The notes under the pieces are model-generated. The model was not told the DNA's origin. It did no database searches and worked only from the letters and a program-made list of their open reading frames with translations. Of a stretch of DNA of 52,452 bases, positions 38,739 to 48,996 are shown piece after piece. Position numbers and translations under genes: made by a program. Positions within the stretch are counted from its first letter, which is position 1. Each line of letters begins with the position of its first letter. Origin of the DNA: Gammaproteobacteria bacterium (lineage in GTDB: Bacteria > Pseudomonadota > Gammaproteobacteria > Pseudomonadales > Azotimanducaceae); the NCBI GenBank assembly GCA_009842245.1, contig VYFT01000083.1:42474-94925 (forward strand), given 5' to 3'.

Positions 38739-39085
38739 CTGTTATGAATCCAGTACTAGCTTGAGTGGTTGGACGCTGTATATTTGTTAGATTACAATAA
38801 TTGAGAAAATAGGAAATATATTATATGTATGTTGACATACAATGCTCTCTCATTGTTTCTTACTATAGTATAACAATAATAACGGCGGAAGTGCAGATTC
38901 TCAAGACTAACATTCCCGCTAGCCGAGAGATAACGGGCGCTGCGGTTCTGCGGGCAATCTGCTTTCCACTCACTACGGGCTCAAATTCAATCTTTTATCT
39001 GGGGACCACCGTATGTCAAGGCTATAATCCTTTGAGTAATTGAGACACATCAATTTGGGAGTCTAGTTTCTTAGAGGCAGTGACT
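38739..39085. other. AT-rich divergent intergenic region
   Basis: Separates the Fic gene (minus) from the first Yip1-like gene (plus). The stretch 38780-38880 is strongly AT-rich and holds a TTGACA at 38832-38837 without a well-spaced -10. A 72-codon frame here (38825-39043) has no ribosome site and no protein-like features, so I do not call it. Promoters for both genes are expected here. Confidence 0.3.
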
Positions 39086-39799
39086 ATGAACTCAGTGAAG
39101 AGTGATTCATTTTCAAAGAAATTTTCCGACTATAGGTTCGGTACGTTTCTTGTAAGTAAAAACGATTGGCTTCAAATTTGGCGGATTTTGTCCTTCAGGT
39201 CTAAACGAGTCTTTGAAGAAATCCAACCTCCGTCCACACCAGTTCTGTTGCCAGCTTTTGTAGTCTTGATTACAGCGTCGGTAATACCTTGGATACTCGT
39301 CCGTACGGTCTTTATTCTCATTGCTCCCAACCCTGTTATGTTCCGTGGACGACGCAGCTTTCTGCCGTTGTTTGAATCTCCGGAGCCTATCCACCAGCTG
39401 AGTACTGCGGTCAGTATGGGAATGAGAAACTTCTTGACACTCATCGTCATTGGTACTTACTTCTTTGTTGTAGCACGTTGCTTTCGCTTAAAGATTCTGT
39501 GGGAACATTGGATTGGTTTTACTTGTTGGACTCTCATTCCCTTAGCGTCGGTACACAGTGCGATGTCATTTCTGTCAATGTATGGCGCGGGAGCAAATTC
39601 CTCCTCGGCGATCATCGCAGTTGCGATACTGGGCACAATGCTACTAATTCTGTGGACTGTGTGTCTAAGTGCGCAGGGCTTGAGGATTTGGACAGCAAAA
39701 GGGTGGGGCTTTTGTTTCGGTTTTGGTGTTTTGCCTTATGTAATCTACTATTTTGATTTCATAATTTCTCTACCGGCCTTCTTTCATTCCTACTATTGA
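39086..39799 (+). CDS. Yip1-like multipass membrane protein, paralogue A
   Basis: 237 residues from the ATG at 39086, with AGAGG eight bases upstream. A cytosolic N-terminus holds the block ILSFRSKRVFEEIQPPSTPVLLP, then about five membrane segments. Between them is a conserved motif RCFRLKILWEHWIGFTCWTLIPL, and near the end a GLRIWTAKGWGFCFGFGVLPY block. The overall plan resembles Yip1/YIP1-domain proteins, whose bacterial function is unknown. Three more copies occur at 39980, 47398 and 48208. Confidence 0.6.
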   Translation: MNSVKSDSFSKKFSDYRFGTFLVSKNDWLQIWRILSFRSKRVFEEIQPPSTPVLLPAFVVLITASVIPWILVRTVFILIAPNPVMFRGRRSFLPLFESPEPIHQLSTAVSMGMRNFLTLIVIGTYFFVVARCFRLKILWEHWIGFTCWTLIPLASVHSAMSFLSMYGAGANSSSAIIAVAILGTMLLILWTVCLSAQGLRIWTAKGWGFCFGFGVLPYVIYYFDFIISLPAFFHSYY

Positions 39800-39979: not shown

Positions 39980-40642
39980 ATGAGTCATCCAAAAGAGAAC
40001 AACTGGGTACATGTGTGGAGTATTTACAGATTTTCGTCTGAGATTGTCTTTGAGGTAATCAAACCCCCTAACACCCCAGTATTGTTCCCAGTTCTCTTTG
40101 TCTCAATAACTGCATCGTTGATACTTTGTGTGATCCTACCGATTCTCTATCCGATCATAGGAGTCAGTGCGATAGATGACTCCGACATTCCTGCTCAGTT
40201 CATTGAGTTCAATGTCACATCAATACTCCCGCACTTCTTGCTGTTCTTTACTATGCCCTTCATTATCGGAGTGTTCTTGGTATTACTAGGAACGTACTTC
40301 TTCATAATTGGACGATTGTTTCGTATAGAAAACATATTGTGGGAACATTGGCTTGGGTTCGCTGGTTGGATAAACATCCCTATGGTTTTGATGTTTTTCG
40401 GGAGTTCCTTGTTGAGCGCATGGGGGCACACTGCAAATCCGTCCCGAATCTTTTTCTTCGCCGTTCTCGTCATATTCGTCATACTACCGATAGTGTGGGC
40501 GGTGGTCTTATGTGTACAGGGTTTGAAAAGTTGGAGCGACAAAGGGACGTCTTTTTGTGTAAGAATCAGTCTAATACCATATTTCATTTTCGCGGTAATG
40601 ACGACTCCTGAGCTTATACTCGTGGGATCACTAGCATGGTAG
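39980..40642 (+). CDS. Yip1-like multipass membrane protein, paralogue B
   Basis: 220 residues; AAGGA precedes the ATG. It has the same architecture as paralogue A: IYRFSSEIVFEVIKPPNTPVLFP at the N-terminus, then LFRIENILWEHWLGFAGWINIPM between membrane segments, and GLKSWSDKGTSFC near the C-terminus. The first extracytoplasmic loop is acidic (AIDDSDIPAQF). It lies 180 bases after A and is convergent with glyA. Five membrane segments are likely. Sequence identity to A is clearly above background in the conserved blocks but low elsewhere, so the duplication is old. Confidence 0.6.
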   Translation: MSHPKENNWVHVWSIYRFSSEIVFEVIKPPNTPVLFPVLFVSITASLILCVILPILYPIIGVSAIDDSDIPAQFIEFNVTSILPHFLLFFTMPFIIGVFLVLLGTYFFIIGRLFRIENILWEHWLGFAGWINIPMVLMFFGSSLLSAWGHTANPSRIFFFAVLVIFVILPIVWAVVLCVQGLKSWSDKGTSFCVRISLIPYFIFAVMTTPELILVGSLAW

Positions 40643-40795: not shown

Positions 40796-42049
40796 TCACT
40801 GCGAATAAACAGGGAATCTCTTACACAGTTCGAGTACTCTCAGTCCTACGGAAGTAATCGTTTCGTCGTTCGTGACGTCGTCAAGAATGTCGCACATCCA
40901 CTGTGCCAAGATCGTACACTCTTGTTTGCGAAAACCACGCCGAGTCACCGCTGCTGAACCGATGCGAAGACGACTTGATGCAGCGGGAGAACGGGGGTCG
41001 GCTCGAGCCGTTATTTTGTTGACGGAAATATAAGCTCGCTTCAATGCTTCATAAGCTGAGGCACCAGACACATCGGTGTCTTGTAGGCTCACTAAGAACA
41101 TATGGATATCGGTCCCTCCAGAGTTAACTCTATAACCACGATCCATAAAGCATTGAGCCATGGTGCGTGAATTTTCTACTACCTGTTGTTGATACTCTCG
41201 AAATTCGGAGGTAGCAGCTTCCTTTAAGCAGACTGCTTTCGCCGCGACTACGTGCATTAGAGGACCACCTTGAGTACCGGGAAAGAGTGCGGAATTTAGT
41301 TTTTTCTCGATCTCCGGATTTTCTCGCGCCAAGATCAATCCACCACGCGGACCCGCTAAGGTCTTATGCGTGGTTGAAGTAACGACATCGGCATACGGGA
41401 CTGGATTGGGATAAACGCCAGCGGCTACGAGACCAGCAACGTGTGCCATATCTACCATCAAATGTGCTCCGATAGAATCTGCTATTTCACGAAACTTTCC
41501 CCAATCTAGTGTGCGACTATACGCTGAAAAACCAGCAACAACTATCTTTGGTTTTTGTTCTTGCGCTTTCGAAAACACGTCATCGTAATCTACTAATCCC
41601 GTGTCGGATCTAACACCATAGTGGACAGCTCGGTAGATTTGACCCGAAAAACTCTCCGGAGAACCATGCGTTAGATGACCTCCTTGAGATGAGCTCATAC
41701 CGAGTATGACATCTCCAGGCTTGAGCAGAGCGAGGTACACAGACGCATTAGCTTGACTACCGGAGTGTGGTTGCACATTTGCATAGTCCGCACCAAACAG
41801 TCTCTTCGCGCGTTCAATAGCAAAGACTTCCACTTGATCGACAAAGTCGCATCCACCGTAATACCGCTTATTGGGATAACCTTCCGCATATTTATTCGTC
41901 ATCCTGCAACCCTGTGCTTCGAGCACAGCTGGAGAAGCATAGTTTTCAGACGCGGTCAGCTCTATGTGATTTTCTTGTCTGTGATTTTCAGCTTGAATTG
42001 CCTCCCAAACTCTGGGATCCATATCACGCAATTTTTCTTGACAAAACAT
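40796..42049 (-). CDS. glyA: Serine hydroxymethyltransferase GlyA, diverged C-terminal domain
   Basis: PLP enzyme interconverting serine and glycine with tetrahydrofolate. 417 residues. The N-terminal and PLP domains are canonical: [46 protein letters not shown], the Schiff-base lysine in [13 protein letters not shown], and [12 protein letters not shown]. The C-terminal domain departs from the usual sequence: the region normally KNxVPxDPxxPFVTSGIRxGTPA reads [23 protein letters not shown] (about 345-367). The Arg binding the substrate carboxylate appears kept (Arg362), but the preceding Gly and the following Thr-Pro are changed. It could be a second, specialised GlyA. It is divergent from the RiPP precursor. 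Confidence 0.85.
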
Positions 42050-42174: not shown

Positions 42175-42180
42175 TATAAT
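42175..42180 (+). promoter_or_regulatory. Candidate -10 element of the RiPP precursor gene
   Basis: A perfect TATAAT 33 bases before the precursor ATG in the 164-base divergent region with glyA. No good -35 lies 16-18 bases upstream, so an activator may be needed or the match may be chance. Confidence 0.35.
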
Positions 42181-42213
42181 TGAAGGGTCTATAACTGCAC
42201 CAAAAGGTCAAAT

Positions 42214-42549
42214 ATGGAAGATCAAAAATTACAACACCTTCGTGACAAATTGGGCATCTCCACCCAAGACGAAAGGAATGCGACTGGTAAAGTACTCGGT
42301 CAAAATTTGCAGAAGAAAGTCTCTAGTTACGAAGAAGCTGGCGGTAATTTCGTCTCTGCTCCTCCCGGAACGGAGTCTGTTTCAGCAGGTGGCAATTTTG
42401 TTTCGGCTCCGCCGGGAACAGAACCCGTAGCGGCCGGTGGAAATTTTGTTTCCGCTCCTCCCGGAACGGAGTCGGTTTCAGCAGGTGGCAACTTTGTATC
42501 AGCCCCTCCAGGTTCTAAATCTGTAGCAGCAAAAGCTCCTCGTTCATAA
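42214..42549 (+). CDS. Multi-core RiPP precursor peptide
   Basis: 111 residues. Residues 1-41 form a polar leader with no signal peptide (MEDQKLQHLRDKLGIS... to SSYEE). Then come four perfect-length 16-residue repeats (42-105) with consensus AGGNFVSAPPGTESVS, and a short basic tail (AKAPRS). Gly-Gly, Asn-Phe-Val-Ser, Ala and Pro-Pro-Gly are invariant; only the last five positions vary. A radical SAM/SPASM enzyme follows 245 bases downstream on the same strand. Repeated cores next to such an enzyme are the hallmark of a ribosomally made, post-translationally modified peptide. Each core has Phe-Val-Ser, matching the aromatic-x-Ser pattern of three-residue cyclophanes. The ATG lies after the weak site AAAAGG. 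I do not recognise this exact precursor family. Confidence 0.82.
   Translation: MEDQKLQHLRDKLGISTQDERNATGKVLGQNLQKKVSSYEEAGGNFVSAPPGTESVSAGGNFVSAPPGTEPVAAGGNFVSAPPGTESVSAGGNFVSAPPGSKSVAAKAPRS
42337..42528 (+). repeat. Four tandem 48-base coding repeats (RiPP cores)
   Basis: Units at 42337-42384, 42385-42432, 42433-42480 and 42481-42528. Units 1 and 3 are closest in DNA; 2 and 4 have drifted. The core Ser is coded by four different codons (TCT, TCG, TCC, TCA), so the repeats are kept at protein level rather than being a recent copy array. Confidence 0.95.
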
Positions 42550-42581
42550 ACCGCGAATTTTCTGACTTTAAAACTGTTCCA

Positions 42582-42599
42582 GTCCGAGGACTACCGGAC
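42582..42599 (+). other. Small hairpin between precursor and maturase
   Basis: GTCCG and CGGAC arms around an eight-base loop, 33 bases after the precursor stop. There is no T-run behind it, so it is not a classic terminator. It could stabilise or attenuate the precursor message relative to the maturase. A weak promoter candidate follows (TTGACT at 42622, 17 bases, TTAATG at 42645). Confidence 0.3.
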
Positions 42600-42794
42600 G
42601 TTATAAACGCATAGCAGATTCTTGACTGCTTAGTCAGGTTTTGGTTAATGTAGTTCGGAGTTTATTGGAAGAGTAGTTCTTCTCTACACCAGTTAGACAA
42701 ACTGAGTTAGAAGGGGAATACAAGGAGCAACCTCTCTAGGTTTAGAGCGGACCACTGATACAGTAGTATTGAGTCAGCATCGATTCAAAATTCC

Positions 42795-43997
42795 ATGTAC
42801 GAAACCACGCACGCATCGAAAACATTGATCTCTTCGGATCGAGTTAAAGTCGATTTCAGCAATCTCCACACCCTCGCGATCACGCTGAAGATATCGGAAC
42901 GATGTAACCTTGACTGCGACTACTGCTATTTCTTCAATGCAGGCGACGACAGTTATGAGACGCATTCAGCACTCATATCACACGACACAATTAGAGTACT
43001 CGTACAAAGACTTAAAGAATTCGCTTCAGAGTTCGAACTGAGACGAATTGTTATCCACTTGCATGGTGGTGAACCACTGCTGATGCCCAAAGACCGATTC
43101 AGCAGTATATGCGAAGAAATCCGATCAAATTTGGATCCCATCGTGGACTTAGCGCTGACAGTCCAAACCAATGCTATGCTGATCGACCACGAATGGATTG
43201 AAATTTTTAAGCAGTATGGCATTCAGGTTGGTATTAGCCTTGACGGCGCGAAGAAACACAACGATGTTCATCGCCGCGATCACCAGGGTAGATCTTCGTA
43301 TGAAGCTACCGCACGGGGTATCTCAATGTGTCGCGAACACCTCCAGCAACCTCCGATGATCTTAGCAGTGGTCGATGACAAGTTCGATGCCAAGGAAATC
43401 TACCAACACTTTCGAGAAGATCTTGGAGCGGATCATTTTGACTTTTTACTTCCCGACATGAATCACGACAACTTCGATGGCAACGCGGAAGCTTACGGTG
43501 ACTTTTTGATTGACATTTTCGACCAGATGGTGGACGATGACGAATCGGTCAGTGTTAGGATCATCGATCACTTCTTAGCTCGGATTTACGGCTACGGGAA
43601 CTTTCTTTTCAGTAGTGAACGCTACACTCCAGAAAATCTTTTAGTAACGGTATCGTCTGAAGGCGGTATGGGACCTGAAGACACGATTCGATCGACAAAG
43701 TTCTGGAGCGGGTACGAGTATCGAGATGTTAAAGAATCCCGAATCGGAGAAGTCATTAAAGATCCCATATTTCAGGACTTCGTACACGGGAAGAACACAC
43801 CGGCAACGGCGTGTTCGGATTGTTGTTGGCGAGACGTTTGTGGCAGTGGTCAACCTGAACATCGATACGGAAGTGTGAATGGCTTTGATAACCCTTCAGT
43901 CTACTGCGAAGGCTTAGACAAGTTCTACACCCATGTGGTGAGACATTTAGCTTTGCAAGGTGAATCCCTGTCCACTCTCAGCGCAGAGTTGGTCTAA
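42795..43997 (+). CDS. Radical SAM/SPASM peptide maturase, probably cyclophane-forming
   Basis: 400 residues. The radical SAM cluster motif is C37-x3-C41-x2-C44 (CNLDCDYCYFF), followed by HLHGGEPLL (SAM contact), QTNAMLID and GISLDGAKKHND. The C-terminal SPASM-type domain carries Cys340, 343, 344, 349 and 371 (CSDCCWRDVCGSGQPEHRY...VYCEGL), which would bind auxiliary Fe-S clusters. This layout matches the group that includes the GrrM-, FxsB- and XyeB-type enzymes, which join an aromatic ring to the beta-carbon of a residue two positions later. Predicted substrate: the four-core precursor upstream. No clear ribosome site precedes the ATG. It is cytoplasmic, with no membrane segment. Confidence 0.85.
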   Translation: MYETTHASKTLISSDRVKVDFSNLHTLAITLKISERCNLDCDYCYFFNAGDDSYETHSALISHDTIRVLVQRLKEFASEFELRRIVIHLHGGEPLLMPKDRFSSICEEIRSNLDPIVDLALTVQTNAMLIDHEWIEIFKQYGIQVGISLDGAKKHNDVHRRDHQGRSSYEATARGISMCREHLQQPPMILAVVDDKFDAKEIYQHFREDLGADHFDFLLPDMNHDNFDGNAEAYGDFLIDIFDQMVDDDESVSVRIIDHFLARIYGYGNFLFSSERYTPENLLVTVSSEGGMGPEDTIRSTKFWSGYEYRDVKESRIGEVIKDPIFQDFVHGKNTPATACSDCCWRDVCGSGQPEHRYGSVNGFDNPSVYCEGLDKFYTHVVRHLALQGESLSTLSAELV

Positions 43998-44049
43998 ACG
44001 GATTCAACCAACGGGTCTATGTTCTCGCACTGCGGGGGTGTGATCCTCA

Positions 44050-44760
44050 GTGAAAATCTACTTTGACCCAAGACTGGGGCCCGTCCATGATCTGATAGCG
44101 TTCAGCGACACGCTTGTTAGCGTGCGAGAGAGCTTTTCGAGTGCTGAAAACTATCGCCCGAACGCCAAATTACCAGTCGACTTTCGACAATTGGATGAAT
44201 TTGAAATCCAGAAATTCACTGGTACTCTCGACGAACTTTCACTTGAGGATGAGCTGAACTTTGTCGCGATCTTCCCTTGTGACCCTGAGTGTGATCGAAC
44301 ACTGGACTTCACCCCCTTCATGAGCTTGTCTCCTATTAACGTTTTAAACGCCTCCGTCGACTCAGCGAACAGTCCGTCGATAACTGTAGATCGAGCTACA
44401 GGGCTAAAGTTGGGATTGCACTTGGATACATGGGATGACCACGACGTTCATTCCAGATGGAAGAGCCGAAACCGGATCGTTGTCAATAGAGGACCAGGGG
44501 ATCGGTATGTCTATTTGATACTCATGCCTATAGAAGAAATGGCGCAGAGCATAGAGTCATCAAACGACCTACATCCGTGCGAGGTTGCTGACGAGTACAT
44601 CAGGCAGAGTGAGAGCAATACGCCATGCCTTCGAATCTGTCAACGACCGAGTGTCGCATATGTGGGTTGTACTGAACGTTTAGTACACGACGCTTGTGTC
44701 AGTCCGCTACACGAAAAAGCAGAGAGCAGACACTATCTTGGTCATTTCGTCAAGAACTAG
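44050..44760 (+). CDS. Putative 2-oxoglutarate/Fe(II) oxygenase partner of the RiPP
   Basis: 236 residues from a GTG at 44050 with GGGGG upstream, 52 bases after the maturase. The central block GLKLGLHLDTWDDHD...RNRIVVNRGPGDRYVYLILMP has the H-x-D pair (His124, Asp126) and following strand pattern of double-stranded beta-helix 2OG oxygenases. A later His (His213, in ERLVHDACV) could be the third iron ligand. I recall that 2OG oxygenases accompany some cyclophane RiPP enzymes but cannot verify a family match. If correct, it would hydroxylate residues of the modified peptide. Eight Cys are scattered through the protein. The N-terminal third is unrecognised. Confidence 0.5.
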   Translation: MKIYFDPRLGPVHDLIAFSDTLVSVRESFSSAENYRPNAKLPVDFRQLDEFEIQKFTGTLDELSLEDELNFVAIFPCDPECDRTLDFTPFMSLSPINVLNASVDSANSPSITVDRATGLKLGLHLDTWDDHDVHSRWKSRNRIVVNRGPGDRYVYLILMPIEEMAQSIESSNDLHPCEVADEYIRQSESNTPCLRICQRPSVAYVGCTERLVHDACVSPLHEKAESRHYLGHFVKN

Positions 44761-44884: not shown

Positions 44885-45187
44885 TTAGTCTCCGGGTCGA
44901 CCTGTTCGCCAGTCCCACGTTCGGATATCGGTTTCTGCTAGCGTATCTGCTTTACCGTAAGGGCTATCCGCAATAAATGCACGCACGGAATCCAATGAGG
45001 ATGCTTCGACCACGAGCAGGAAACCAACGGGTGTATTGAAATCCTCGTCATGCGTAGGACCAGCGTTGTGGACGACAACATCCGGATGGCCAGGATGGCT
45101 TTGTAAGTAGTCGGCAAAAGCTAACTGCACTTCACTTCCTGATTGAACACGACCTGATTTATGTGTGGCACTAACAACAACGTACAT
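44885..45187 (-). CDS. YciI-like protein
   Basis: 100 residues from the ATG at 45187, with AAGGAAA six bases upstream; the longer frame to 45274 is rejected. A ferredoxin-like alpha/beta fold of the YciI type is suggested by MYVVVSATHKSG, HNAGPTHDEDFNTPVGFLLVVEASSLDSVRAFIADSPYGKADTL and the final RTWDWRTG. YciI-like proteins are small dimeric putative enzymes with no agreed reaction. It is convergent with the RiPP operon and downstream of the NCS2 gene on the same strand. Confidence 0.75.
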   Translation of the reverse strand: MYVVVSATHKSGRVQSGSEVQLAFADYLQSHPGHPDVVVHNAGPTHDEDFNTPVGFLLVVEASSLDSVRAFIADSPYGKADTLAETDIRTWDWRTGRPGD

Positions 45188-45306
45188 GACTGTTTCCTTA
45201 AAAGTATGTTCTTGAGAATCAACAAATTTTATGGACGACTTTACTGGTTCTCTTCGGTCGTGTTGAATTACCAAGATAGAAGATCACGTTTGAGCATGGA
45301 ATACTT

Positions 45307-47070
45307 CTACGTTATACCATATGTCGTCTCACGTCCGTGTTCCATTCGAACGGTGACGATGTCAGTCTGATGGTACTGCTGATGACGAACGGAGGAAGCA
45401 AGGTGGCTCAGCAGTCGCAACGAGACGTCCTGTTCGATCATTGCAGCCGCATTTGCTTCACCCAATAACGCAATCCGGTCCTGAATGTTCTCTTCGCCTT
45501 TTGAAGATACTAACTCCAGGATCACGGATCGACCCTCGGTGTACGTCGTTAGTAGCAAACGCCGTCCATCGTCGGTGCCCTCTTTATCGGTTTGGCGCAG
45601 CGTTAACCATATTTCTTCGCAGACGGCATTGAGGCGATCCACCATCTTTGTATCCCAACCTCTACGTTCTGCGAGAGTGCCGACGAAATTCCATAGATCT
45701 TGTAATGCAGAAGTGTCAAACCCCACTTCTATACGGTGGCGTCGCGATTTCGTCAGTTCAAGCAACATTGTTAAAGCGATAGCTACTATTCCACCTGCGA
45801 GCATTCCGTTTTGAAGAAGAGCGCGCACAAACTCTGGGGCTTGGTCAAGAAACATTGCTTGGGTCTGAAACCCTACACCGAGCCAGAATGAGACCCCAAC
45901 AATCAATCCTTTGCGAAAGTCAATTCCATCTTGAATGATCACCCGCGTACCGATCACGAAAATAGTCGCCATCGTGACCGTTATAAACGCTGCGACTACT
46001 GGCATTGGTATTGCAAGTATCACGGCCAGTGCTTTAGGTATGAACGCGAGCAAGAGGAATAGCACTCCCAGTGCGATTCCGATACGACGGGAACTAACCC
46101 CACTGATTTCAACCATTGATGCGCCGGATGGCCTGAAGCCTAGTGGCATCGTGCATGCGATTCCGGAGAGCAGATTGCCCACCGCGTCCCCAGCTACGGC
46201 ACCTTGCACGGCGCGGAAATCCACAGCTCGATCGTCCTCCCAAGAAACTTGCTGAATTCCAACGGCACCACTGATTGTTTGCATCGTGCAAACCAACGCA
46301 ACTAGCACAAACGCTGGAAGTAATACCCAGAAATCAGCTTTGAATTGAAAGTCCAGGAGCACCGCTTCAAATTGAGGCAAACCAATCCAGGAGGCATTAA
46401 CGACGCGGTCAACGTCATACAGTCCGAACATGCCACCAACAATGGAGCCGGCGACTATGCCGATAACTGGACCCCAAAATCGCATCCGACTCTTTCCGAT
46501 GAGAGTGATACCGACAATGAGGACCATGGTGACTAACGCACTGAGTGCTGCACCAGCGAGGGGTATGTCCTCCACTCCAAAGTTTGATCGGTTGAACAGT
46601 ACTGGCATGATCGTGATTGGAGTGAGCATGAGAACCGTGCCGGTTACGGTGGGTGTAAGAATCCGGCGTAACAGTGAGAGATGCCCGGAAAACAAAATTT
46701 GAACCAAACCGAAGCACACTACCAGAGTCGCGAGCAACGCTGGTCCTCCTGCGGCTAGAGCCGCAATGCTAACAGCGATCGCGGCTATGGATGGTCCAAC
46801 CGCGAGAATGTAGCCAGCGCCGAATCGACCAATCCTACGTGCTTGGAGAATCGCGGTAATACCAGAAATTGCGACTGAAGCAAACACAGCCCACTGCAGG
46901 TTTTCATCGGGTTGGCCAGCAGCTCGAAACACGACCGTCGGGATCATTACGACACCTGGTATTACCAGGCAAGCAATCTGCGCCGCGACACCCACGTTCA
47001 CTGAAATGGGGGTTGCTGCGTCTGGATGAAGGCGATAGTGTGAGTCTGGGTTGGATTCGTTGAGACCCAT
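45307..47070 (-). CDS. NCS2-type nucleobase permease fused to a kinase-like ATPase domain
   Basis: 587 residues. Residues ~20-445 form a UraA/XanP-like NCS2 transporter with about 12-14 membrane segments. It includes TMQTISGAVGIQQVSWEDDRAVDFRAVQGAVAGDAVGNLLSG, which corresponds to the family's substrate and helix-break region. The last 139 residues (449-587) are soluble and resemble an RsbW/HATPase_c_2 domain: DLWNFVGTLAERRGWDTKMVDRLNAVCEEIWL aligns with the N-box helix. The usual Asn is missing and no glycine-rich box is seen, so ATP binding is doubtful. The substrate is probably a purine or pyrimidine base, not certain. Start ATG at 47070. Confidence 0.78.
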   Translation of the reverse strand: MGLNESNPDSHYRLHPDAATPISVNVGVAAQIACLVIPGVVMIPTVVFRAAGQPDENLQWAVFASVAISGITAILQARRIGRFGAGYILAVGPSIAAIAVSIAALAAGGPALLATLVVCFGLVQILFSGHLSLLRRILTPTVTGTVLMLTPITIMPVLFNRSNFGVEDIPLAGAALSALVTMVLIVGITLIGKSRMRFWGPVIGIVAGSIVGGMFGLYDVDRVVNASWIGLPQFEAVLLDFQFKADFWVLLPAFVLVALVCTMQTISGAVGIQQVSWEDDRAVDFRAVQGAVAGDAVGNLLSGIACTMPLGFRPSGASMVEISGVSSRRIGIALGVLFLLLAFIPKALAVILAIPMPVVAAFITVTMATIFVIGTRVIIQDGIDFRKGLIVGVSFWLGVGFQTQAMFLDQAPEFVRALLQNGMLAGGIVAIALTMLLELTKSRRHRIEVGFDTSALQDLWNFVGTLAERRGWDTKMVDRLNAVCEEIWLTLRQTDKEGTDDGRRLLLTTYTEGRSVILELVSSKGEENIQDRIALLGEANAAAMIEQDVSLRLLSHLASSVRHQQYHQTDIVTVRMEHGRETTYGIT

Positions 47071-47397: not shown

Positions 47398-48060
47398 ATG
47401 AATCAACCACAGAAACACGACTGGAAGCGAATCCTGAAGATTTTTTCCTTTTCGTCTAGACAAGTCTTTGAAGAGATTCGACCACCTGGTACTTACATCT
47501 TAGTACCTTTGACGTTTCTATTGGTGACAACATTTATAGTTGGGATCGTACTAACGTTTTTCTATCTTACCGGATACCAGCCTCTAAATGAGCTAAGTGT
47601 GCACTGGTGGTTTGCGGAAGCTACATTGGTACATCAGGCTTTAATGGTCGGGACAATGTTGCTCACACTACTATATATCGTTGTTTTGGCTGTGATTCTG
47701 CTGGGAACTTACTACTACGCTCTGGCGCGCTGTTATCGAATTCACGACATTCGATGGGAACATTGGTTTGGCTTCGCCTGCTGGACGCTCGTCCCAATGT
47801 TCATGGTGCCGAGTGCAAGAGTGTTTTTCGAAAATTATGAGACTGCGGTGTATCCGTCTTTTATTCTGAGCGTTGTCGTGTTAGCACTTTGTTTTTTGCT
47901 CCCAATCATTTGGTCAGTTTATCTCACGGTTCGTGGATTGCTTGTTTGGAACAAAAATACGAAACGCTGGCACATTTTCTTCTGTGTTTTACCATTTCTA
48001 GTGATAGGGCTCGCTTCGTTTCCACAATTGCTTGAACTGTTTGCTGAGATACTCTCATGA
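47398..48060 (+). CDS. Yip1-like multipass membrane protein, paralogue C
   Basis: 220 residues. N-terminal block IFSFSSRQVFEEIRPPGTYILVP, five membrane segments, the CYRIHDIRWEHWFGFACWTLVPM motif and GLLVWNKNTKRWHIFFCVLPF near the end. It is the same family as the copies at 39086, 39980 and 48208. No strong ribosome site precedes the ATG. It may be co-transcribed with paralogue D after a 147-base gap. Function unknown. Confidence 0.6.
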   Translation: MNQPQKHDWKRILKIFSFSSRQVFEEIRPPGTYILVPLTFLLVTTFIVGIVLTFFYLTGYQPLNELSVHWWFAEATLVHQALMVGTMLLTLLYIVVLAVILLGTYYYALARCYRIHDIRWEHWFGFACWTLVPMFMVPSARVFFENYETAVYPSFILSVVVLALCFLLPIIWSVYLTVRGLLVWNKNTKRWHIFFCVLPFLVIGLASFPQLLELFAEILS

Positions 48061-48207: not shown

Positions 48208-48996
48208 ATGCTACCACCCGATTCGAGCACACCAAAATCAGAATCTCAGAAAGGAATGAATTGGTTGCGTATTGGGAAGATCTACACTTTTTCGTCTGAT
48301 CAGGTCTTTAAAGAGATACTCCCGCCTCGTACCCCTTTTCTAGTACCCTCGTTGTTCATTTCAATAGCATCAGCGATAGTGCTGTGGGTCATCGTACCAG
48401 TAGTCTTCGACAGGCATGGAACTGAATCAGAGACCCATGATCACGAGCTGCATACAGAGAGTGGATGGGAAGTTGAAGAATTTGAACATGATGCGCATTC
48501 AGAGAGTGATTGGGAACTTGAAGAACTTGATATCGAACCACACGCAAAGAGTGATTGGGAAGTTGGAAAATTTGTCCAAAGTGTGGTTATCGAGGTGCCG
48601 TTTGAAGTTTTTGGGTATGTGATTGGCATGGTGCTACTCGGTACCTACTACTTTGGTATCGCTAGGTTCTTTCGGATCGACAATATATGGTGGGAACATT
48701 GGTTCGCGTTCGCTTGGTGGACGCATATACCTTTAATCTTGGCGAATGGTGCTACTGCTGTTATAGACGTATATTCAGTCACGGAACACCCTTCGTTTTT
48801 GGTAAGCTTGCTTGTGATAGGGTTGTGTTTTTTGCTTCCAATCGTGTGGACTATGAGTCTCTCAGTACGAGGACTGCGGATTTGGACCCAAAAGGGGTGG
48901 GCTTTTTGCCTTAGCGTAAGTGCGCTTCCTTACTTGTTACTCGTTTTGCTTTATTCAAGACGCATTGTTGAAATTTTCTTACGTGCACTTTCGTAA
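48208..48996 (+). CDS. Yip1-like multipass membrane protein, paralogue D with loop repeats
   Basis: 262 residues. It shares the family blocks IYTFSSDQVFKEILPPRTPFLVP, FFRIDNIWWEHWFAFAWWTHIPL and GLRIWTQKGWAFCLSVSALPY. It is longer than its paralogues because the first loop, between membrane segments 1 and 2, holds three 15-residue acidic repeats (82-126). The repeats carry His and acidic residues, which could bind cations, though this is inference. A strong hairpin lies just downstream. Confidence 0.6.
   Translation: MLPPDSSTPKSESQKGMNWLRIGKIYTFSSDQVFKEILPPRTPFLVPSLFISIASAIVLWVIVPVVFDRHGTESETHDHELHTESGWEVEEFEHDAHSESDWELEELDIEPHAKSDWEVGKFVQSVVIEVPFEVFGYVIGMVLLGTYYFGIARFFRIDNIWWEHWFAFAWWTHIPLILANGATAVIDVYSVTEHPSFLVSLLVIGLCFLLPIVWTMSLSVRGLRIWTQKGWAFCLSVSALPYLLLVLLYSRRIVEIFLRALS
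48451..48585 (+). repeat. Three tandem 45-base coding repeats in a membrane-protein loop
   Basis: They encode HTESGWEVEEFEHDA, HSESDWELEELDIEP and HAKSDWEVGKFVQSV. The Ser-x-Trp-Glu core is constant. The array is absent from the three paralogues, so it is an expansion specific to this copy. Confidence 0.85.

Follow-up and report, generated by a model that had tools for sequence, protein, structure and literature searches.

A probable triceptide-type gene cluster with repeated GGNFVS cores, a cyclophane-group radical SAM maturase and a putative MicC-related oxygenase in Azotimanducaceae

The closest described counterparts of the system reported here include radical S-adenosylmethionine (SAM)/SPASM enzymes of the XyeB, YhhB, FxsB and GrrM/OscB families, together with the solved enzyme ChlB. 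FxsB precursors are defined by an FxSxx-COOH tail, and MscB is presumably an enzyme of the FxsB family. MscB (IPR026335) is described as bonding C4 of Phe to the Cβ of Ser at i,i+2 (PMC11002830), ChlB is named as a multiple cyclophane synthase in a reference title (PMC12636437), and the β-hydroxylation performed by an α-ketoglutarate-dependent HExxH enzyme is contingent on a preinstalled cyclophane (PMC12636437).

Here we describe three genes (A, B and C; Table 1), all in one direction, in a stretch of 52,452 nucleotides of a gammaproteobacterium of the family Azotimanducaceae (assembly GCA_009842245.1, contig VYFT01000083.1, positions 42,474 to 94,925), to which we will refer as the window. 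They encode a precursor peptide with repeated cores, a radical SAM/SPASM maturase and a putative oxygenase, and judging from sequence we consider it likely that together they make up a compact biosynthetic cluster whose product is a ribosomal peptide with cyclophanes, of the triceptide type. An earlier sequence-only reading of the window had proposed a three-gene locus for a ribosomally synthesized and post-translationally modified peptide (RiPP), with a 111-residue peptide carrying four 16-residue cores. Translation and Tandem Repeats Finder (TRF) confirmed its coordinates, frames and peptide, and the family matches and the conserved trio described below support a RiPP locus with a cyclophane-type maturase and an oxygenase.

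Precursor, maturase and oxygenase

The four cores of protein A begin at residues 43, 59, 75 and 91 (16 apart) and share the decapeptide GGNFVSAPPG, followed by Thr in three copies and by Ser in the last; the core GGNFVSAPPGT of the sequence-only reading is correct for those three, and the core conserved across genera is GGNFVS. TRF detects a 48-bp array in the gene, whose reading frame is the only one of the window's 414 stop-to-stop frames with 50 or more amino acids (aa) to repeat a 10-residue word three times or more. Its four DNA copies differ at 4–9 of 30 bases while encoding an identical decapeptide. Among the 24 cores of seven genomes of the window's genus, silent variation occurs at all 10 codons with zero amino-acid changes, the silent share expected of random substitutions being only 29%. 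Precursors of the same genus contain four cores (four genomes), three (two genomes) or two (one genome); those of a second genus of the family, g605, contain three, three and one, with a shorter spacer (GGNFVSAPPQA and similar) or a single core as the peptide end (GGNFVSATRS). Altogether GGNFVS is present in 31/31 cores across 10 genomes (GGNFVSA in 29, GGNFVSS in two), F-V-S providing in each of them the aromatic-X-X3 motif of triceptide cores, and PP follows the motif in all except the single-core precursor of genome G1134. The thiovarsolin precursor model NF033878 gives 14.8 bits for A, under its cut-off of 35, and that identity was rejected. A literature text search, with most subscription papers outside its reach, returned GGNFVS in two papers with unrelated titles and in no paper in a RiPP sense, and GGNFVSA or NFVSAPPG in none.

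The CxxxCxxC motif and five-Cys SPASM-like domain that had been noticed in the maturase are located at C37/C41/C44 and at C340, C343, C344, C349 and C371, respectively. A search of curated families, suggested by the sequence-only reading as a check, returned XyeB (TIGR04496; 277.6 bits), YhhB (NF041707; 272.3) and FxsB (TIGR04269; 257.3) as the best NCBIfam models, all named cyclophane-forming and all with curated cut-offs above these scores (450, 445 and 370); the maturase L088, a relative from genus g605, presents the same picture with 273.8, 280.8 and 270.6 bits. GrrM/OscB (TIGR04261) follows with 133.3 bits against a cut-off of 310. By the curated thresholds, the maturase is none of XyeB, YhhB, FxsB or GrrM; it is nonetheless a cyclophane-group radical SAM/SPASM protein beside a short precursor, as in triceptide systems. 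Its nearest solved relative is ChlB (E 1.1e-47), in which, as in the window maturase, the cysteines of the SPASM part within the aligned stretch lie only in a C-terminal block. The spacing of F-V-S fits the Phe-to-Ser i,i+2 bond of MscB, so that family and motif together suggest a cross-link at this position. Ratios of non-synonymous to synonymous substitution rates (dN/dS) of 0.04–0.07 in four pairs indicate strong selection on the maturase. In PHROGs, the maturase matched radical SAM families and one family of unknown function, and neither the precursor nor the oxygenase had a match.

The HxD noticed earlier in protein C corresponds to H124-D126, and the putative oxygenase can now be placed with MicC (PDB 9vkm), a solved α-ketoglutarate oxygenase. 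The match has an E of 8.5e-5 with a single sequence, 2.1e-5 with a profile of seven rows and 4.2e-7 with ten, improving as true relatives join. Protein C shows both the sequence similarity to MicC and its homologue and the HxD...H pattern expected of an enzyme of the MicC type: H124, D126 and H213, which may be the iron ligands, are invariant in the ten rows and in a four-row distant alignment. R227 is invariant in the ten close rows and not in the distant alignment, and a 2-oxoglutarate-binding residue is not assignable. Among plasmids, protein C had three matches: a Nostoc protein, 33% identical over 114 residues, with its own MicC match at 1.3e-28 and encoded directly 3' of grrM; a weaker Streptomyces relative (E 5e-4) encoded directly before grrM; and a Halorubrum protein (E 0.8). 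YhhC shows no such similarity (BLASTP E 19). The evidence points to protein C being a distant relative of MicC, similar to Fe/α-ketoglutarate oxygenases.

The trio occurs in 10 genomes, namely 7/18 of the window's genus and 3/9 of genus g605, the g605 maturases being 65–67% identical to that of the window. The order precursor, maturase, oxygenase is kept in all ten, and the flanking genes are not alike between the two genera, which indicates that the trio is a unit. The sequence-only reading would have been contradicted by maturase homologues never standing beside a GGNF-repeat peptide; maturases of 65–100% identity were found in ten genomes, every one beside a GGNFVS precursor and an oxygenase. 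Family-wide, the maturase is present in 10/206 genomes, with nine more matching at only 24–33% identity. Searches with protein C in 390 genomes of the order and 398 of the phylum returned the window's own copy only, and the maturase had no close relative in 369 genomes of the class, but the nine other known carriers are absent from these samples, which consequently give no evidence of absence elsewhere. As for virus-borne homologues, four viral_contigs stretches matched a pattern and none was confirmed.

We infer the chemistry of both enzymes from these relationships. In the proposed pathway, the leader (MED....LRxKLGI...) would bring the maturase to the core region, where the radical SAM enzyme would remove H2 from each core by bonding the Phe ring to the Ser β-carbon within Phe-Val-Ser. 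The MicC-related enzyme would next oxidize each core, most likely by β-hydroxylation in or beside the ring; the proposed cyclophane-first order is that of the α-ketoglutarate-dependent hydroxylation cited above, which is reported to require a preinstalled cyclophane (PMC12636437). A peptidase encoded elsewhere in the genome, possibly a double-glycine peptidase of the C39 type, would then cleave after each GG and yield up to four near-identical peptides beginning with NFVS; each core is preceded by GG, as is the WVN of XyeA, and a double-glycine peptidase could in this way free the NFVS... units. The computed [M+H]+ of the unit NFVSAPPGTESVSAGG is 1476.696 unmodified, 1474.681 with one cross-link and 1490.676 with cross-link plus O; for the G1134 unit NFVSATRS, the corresponding values are 881.448, 879.432 and 895.427.

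The neighbouring SHMT paralogue and the surroundings of the trio

Divergent from A lies a gene for a serine hydroxymethyltransferase (SHMT), whose score clears the family cut-off (586.2 vs 335) and which the sequence-only reading of the trio passed over. Within the window's genus, two SHMT copies are found in 7/7 carriers, the second always adjoining the trio, one copy in 10 of the 11 non-carriers, and none in the eleventh (77% complete). The neighbour copies make up one clade (support 100/100), and 18 of the 216 columns invariant in 17 other SHMT copies are changed in all seven of them. As a control, 3 of 178 columns invariant elsewhere differ in every one of the six housekeeping copies of the lineage, that of G010, which groups elsewhere, being left out. 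With the lists of site residues given in PMC7916883, the 16 residues of the pyridoxal 5'-phosphate (PLP) site are all kept in the seven copies, and the folate site (L121, G125, L127, N347, E57, Y64) is altered: L121 is replaced by Ser and N347 by Ile in 7/7, L127 by Pro or Thr in 6/7 (the window copy retains Leu), with G125, E57 and Y64 unchanged throughout. L121, L127 and N347 are unvarying in 39 other SHMT copies from the family, and in the SHMTs of E. coli and rabbit Asn347 makes a direct hydrogen bond to folate (PMC4257618). The neighbour SHMT has probably lost folate use and kept PLP chemistry, and its altered folate site offers a testable case of a repurposed housekeeping enzyme. In genomes G004, G008 and G013, the synonymous rate (dS) of the neighbour SHMT (0.15–0.18) is far lower than that of the housekeeping paralogue (0.56–0.57), and also far below that of the maturase in two of three pairs, a possible sign that closely related genomes have exchanged this block by recombination.

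The alternative that survives best is a larger cluster in the window's genus, in which this SHMT, independent of folate, would carry out PLP aldol or retro-aldol chemistry on a product-derived amino acid or on the peptide end. We regard it as doubtful, though it is the most serious of the alternatives considered. It draws on the presence of the second copy in every carrier and in none of the 11 non-carriers, always beside the trio, on its separate clade with an intact PLP site, and on the two substitutions common to all seven copies. Nevertheless, in each of the three g605 carriers there is only one SHMT match, and it lies on a contig other than that of the trio; the seven carriers of the window's genus are probably one lineage, so the co-occurrence may represent a single event; two further neighbours (a YciI-like gene and a permease) show equal linkage; the neighbour copy evolves faster than its paralogue (dN/dS 0.12–0.36 vs 0.03–0.04, four pairs); and a second SHMT match is also present in 12/196 family genomes lacking the trio, some of which may be fragments. 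A more specific version, in which the recruited enzyme would cut or extend the released cyclophane or β-hydroxylated residue by PLP aldol chemistry without folate, seems to us somewhat less likely still. If true, the peptide would act as the scaffold from which a small product of aromatic amino-acid type is made; to our knowledge, such a step is not known from any RiPP pathway.

The remaining surroundings of the trio are summarized in Table 1. The YciI-like gene and the NCS2 permease probably lie outside the unit formed by the trio. No genomes but the seven carriers have a 77–82% homologue of the permease, which has a long C-terminal extension; elsewhere in the genus the best homologues are at 40–52%. 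Paralogues of a Yip1-domain membrane protein flank the cluster on both sides (39980-40642 and 47398-48060), with neighbours that look similar by eye (39080-39799 and 48208-48996), as a scattered local family. Upstream of A, an AAGG ribosome-binding-like site and TATAAT are found in 7/7 carriers of the genus (in upstream stretches, five of them aligned); a simple consensus promoter scan did not list this TATAAT among its predictions.

Table 1. Features of the locus and its neighbours (positions in the window)
Feature	Position	Strand	Remarks
Second serine hydroxymethyltransferase (SHMT)	40796..42049	-	Divergent from A, 164 bp gap; pathway membership uncertain
TATAAT element, 5' of A	42175..42180	+	In 60-base upstream stretches, 7/7 carriers of the window's genus
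AAAAGG ribosome-binding-like site, 5' of A	42202-42207	+	
Precursor peptide gene A	42214..42549	+	111 aa; ~42-residue leader followed by GGNFVSAPPG(T/S) in four cores, one every 16 residues
Core region	42340..42513	+	GGNFVSAPPG starts at 42340, 42388, 42436 and 42484; last copy ends at 42513
Maturase gene B, radical SAM/SPASM	42795..43997	+	400 aa; CxxxCxxC and five C-terminal Cys
Putative oxygenase gene C, α-ketoglutarate/Fe-type, MicC-related	44050..44760	+	236 aa, GTG start; H124xD126 and H213 invariant
YciI-like gene	44885..45274	-	Neighbour in 7/7 carriers of the window's genus
NCS2 xanthine/uracil-type permease	45307..47070	-	Neighbour in 7/7 carriers of the window's genus

Weighing of the cyclophane assignment

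Several results weigh against a cyclophane cluster completed by a MicC-related oxygenase. Because the genomes that carry them are related, the 31 cores do not count as independent samples. All curated cut-offs lie above the scores of the maturase, so that the type of cross-link is an extrapolation. Protein C finds no support in curated domain collections, with no Pfam match in any of 10 members at E values of 1 or below and, in NCBIfam, only a match at chance level in one of seven members (E 0.19; 10 bits, the cut-off being 628). Its AlphaFold2 models from alignments of seven and ten rows are unusable, with predicted local distance difference test (pLDDT) values of 37 and 36; they give no hold to the "beta-helix-like" block of the sequence-only reading, of which the HxD stands, and the sequence favours an Fe/α-ketoglutarate oxygenase. 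The stretches adjoining the trio that were read in the two genera (by eye only for the g605 neighbours) contained no recognisable gene for a peptidase or an exporter, and C39 peptidase domains are present in 16/18 genomes of the window's genus with or without the cluster (6/7 carriers, 10/11 non-carriers), which makes their link to core release a tentative one.

From the same evidence it could be argued that the radical SAM enzyme forms another bond on the repeat (Asn, Val or Pro chemistry, or another ring size) and that the product is of a new type, an explanation that we judge unlikely. Besides the sub-threshold scores, it can invoke the GGN that precedes F in 31/31 cores and the PP that follows in 30/31, a sign of selection wider than F-x-S, and the precedent of TvgB, from another radical SAM class, which acts on Val of a repeat precursor to give cyclopropylglycine (PMC11002830; PMC9062424). 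It is opposed by the three top families, all of them named for cyclophane formation, by the agreement of F-V-S with the bond of MscB (PMC11002830), and by the single-core precursor of G1134, which dispenses with PP. We prefer a Phe-to-Ser cyclophane.

Two further explanations fare worse. Self-resistance by target duplication, with the second SHMT as a resistant version of the enzyme that the product attacks, is very improbable: an additional copy of a housekeeping enzyme does adjoin a biosynthetic cluster, but a resistance copy must function, and the folate contacts of this one are altered. In g605, the SHMT of the carriers is of a 45–46% type and that of six non-carriers of a 62–65% type; the former is common among cluster-free genomes of the family, and self-resistance by SHMT replacement in that genus was dropped after the 43–46% type was also found in dozens of them. 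Least credible of all is a repeat protein of structural or surface role with the enzymes as chance neighbours. Short low-complexity Gly/Pro repeats do exist in non-RiPP proteins, but the trio keeps its order in 10/10 carriers of two genera with unlike flanks, and G1134 retains GGNFVS when reduced to one core.

Comparison with known systems

Having set these alternatives against the cyclophane cluster, we can compare the latter with its described counterparts. The triceptide system XyeB/XyeA of Xenorhabdus bovienii (L118) provides the top NCBIfam model, XyeB being 36.5% identical to the window maturase; in both systems the precursor is followed by the radical SAM gene, and XyeA places GG directly before its aromatic motif (SGGWVN), as the window cores do. 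XyeA is, however, a peptide of 51 aa with GGWVN... at its end, compared to 111 aa and four cores in the window, and further along the xye operon encodes a hypothetical protein, HlyD and an ABC transporter with a peptidase domain, but no annotated oxygenase. The order precursor, radical SAM enzyme and 2-oxoglutarate/Fe(II) oxygenase is shared with yhhABC from a Vibrio echinoideorum plasmid (L119), although YhhA (47 aa, with Tyr/His motifs) is unlike the window precursor, and YhhC, which matches the Pfam family 2OG-FeII_Oxy_3, is not detectably similar to protein C. The Phe C4 to Ser Cβ bond of MscB agrees with the F-x-S spacing of the window cores (PMC11002830). These cores are internal and repeated, unlike the terminal FxSxx-COOH of FxsB substrates.

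In the GrrM/OscB clusters of Nostoc sp. TCL26-01 and Streptomyces sp. ADI95-16, the oxygenase family of protein C also adjoins a cyclophane synthase, while the Nostoc precursor-like open reading frame lacks GGNFVS and the window maturase scores low on GrrM, as given above. The fused radical SAM and α-ketoglutarate HExxH proteins of the ChlB/ChlH type follow the same logic, with a cyclophane and then β-hydroxylation (PMC12636437), whereas protein C stands on its own, with HxD...H and no HExxH. Finally, TvgABCDE of Halomonas combines a repeat precursor, a radical SAM enzyme and an α-ketoglutarate enzyme, as in the window, and departs from it by its TVGG repeats, its cyclopropylglycine chemistry and its own peptidase and transporters (PMC11002830; PMC9062424). 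In another family of the class, a precursor-like open reading frame with GGNYRQSGGGSYSQSGGGDYSQSGGGDYTQ repeats (GGNYRQ-like; L085) lies upstream of a cyclophane-type maturase of 33% identity. The multi-core precursor, which the sequence-only reading had considered possibly new, does not hold as a novelty, given the precedents of TvgA (PMC9062424) and L085 and the range of one to four copies, by which several cores are not essential.

The trio order (yhhABC), the repeat precursors (TvgA, L085) and the logic of cyclophane plus oxygenase all have precedents, so the kind of system is already known. Regarding its particular precursor family, its pairing with a MicC-type oxygenase and its SHMT neighbourhood, we know of no earlier report, and the locus looks like a branch of the cyclophane peptide class without an earlier record. 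Its maturases form a further branch of probable cyclophane synthases. Their substrate, GGNFVS, is unusually simple, is repeated and is strictly conserved, and the precursors, which range naturally from one core to four, lend themselves to studies of processivity, of how the leader is used and of the order in which modifications are made. Compared with the known systems, a synthase similar to XyeB, YhhB and FxsB is paired here with a type of oxygenase otherwise found in this work beside GrrM/OscB, which suggests that tailoring enzymes move between cyclophane systems.

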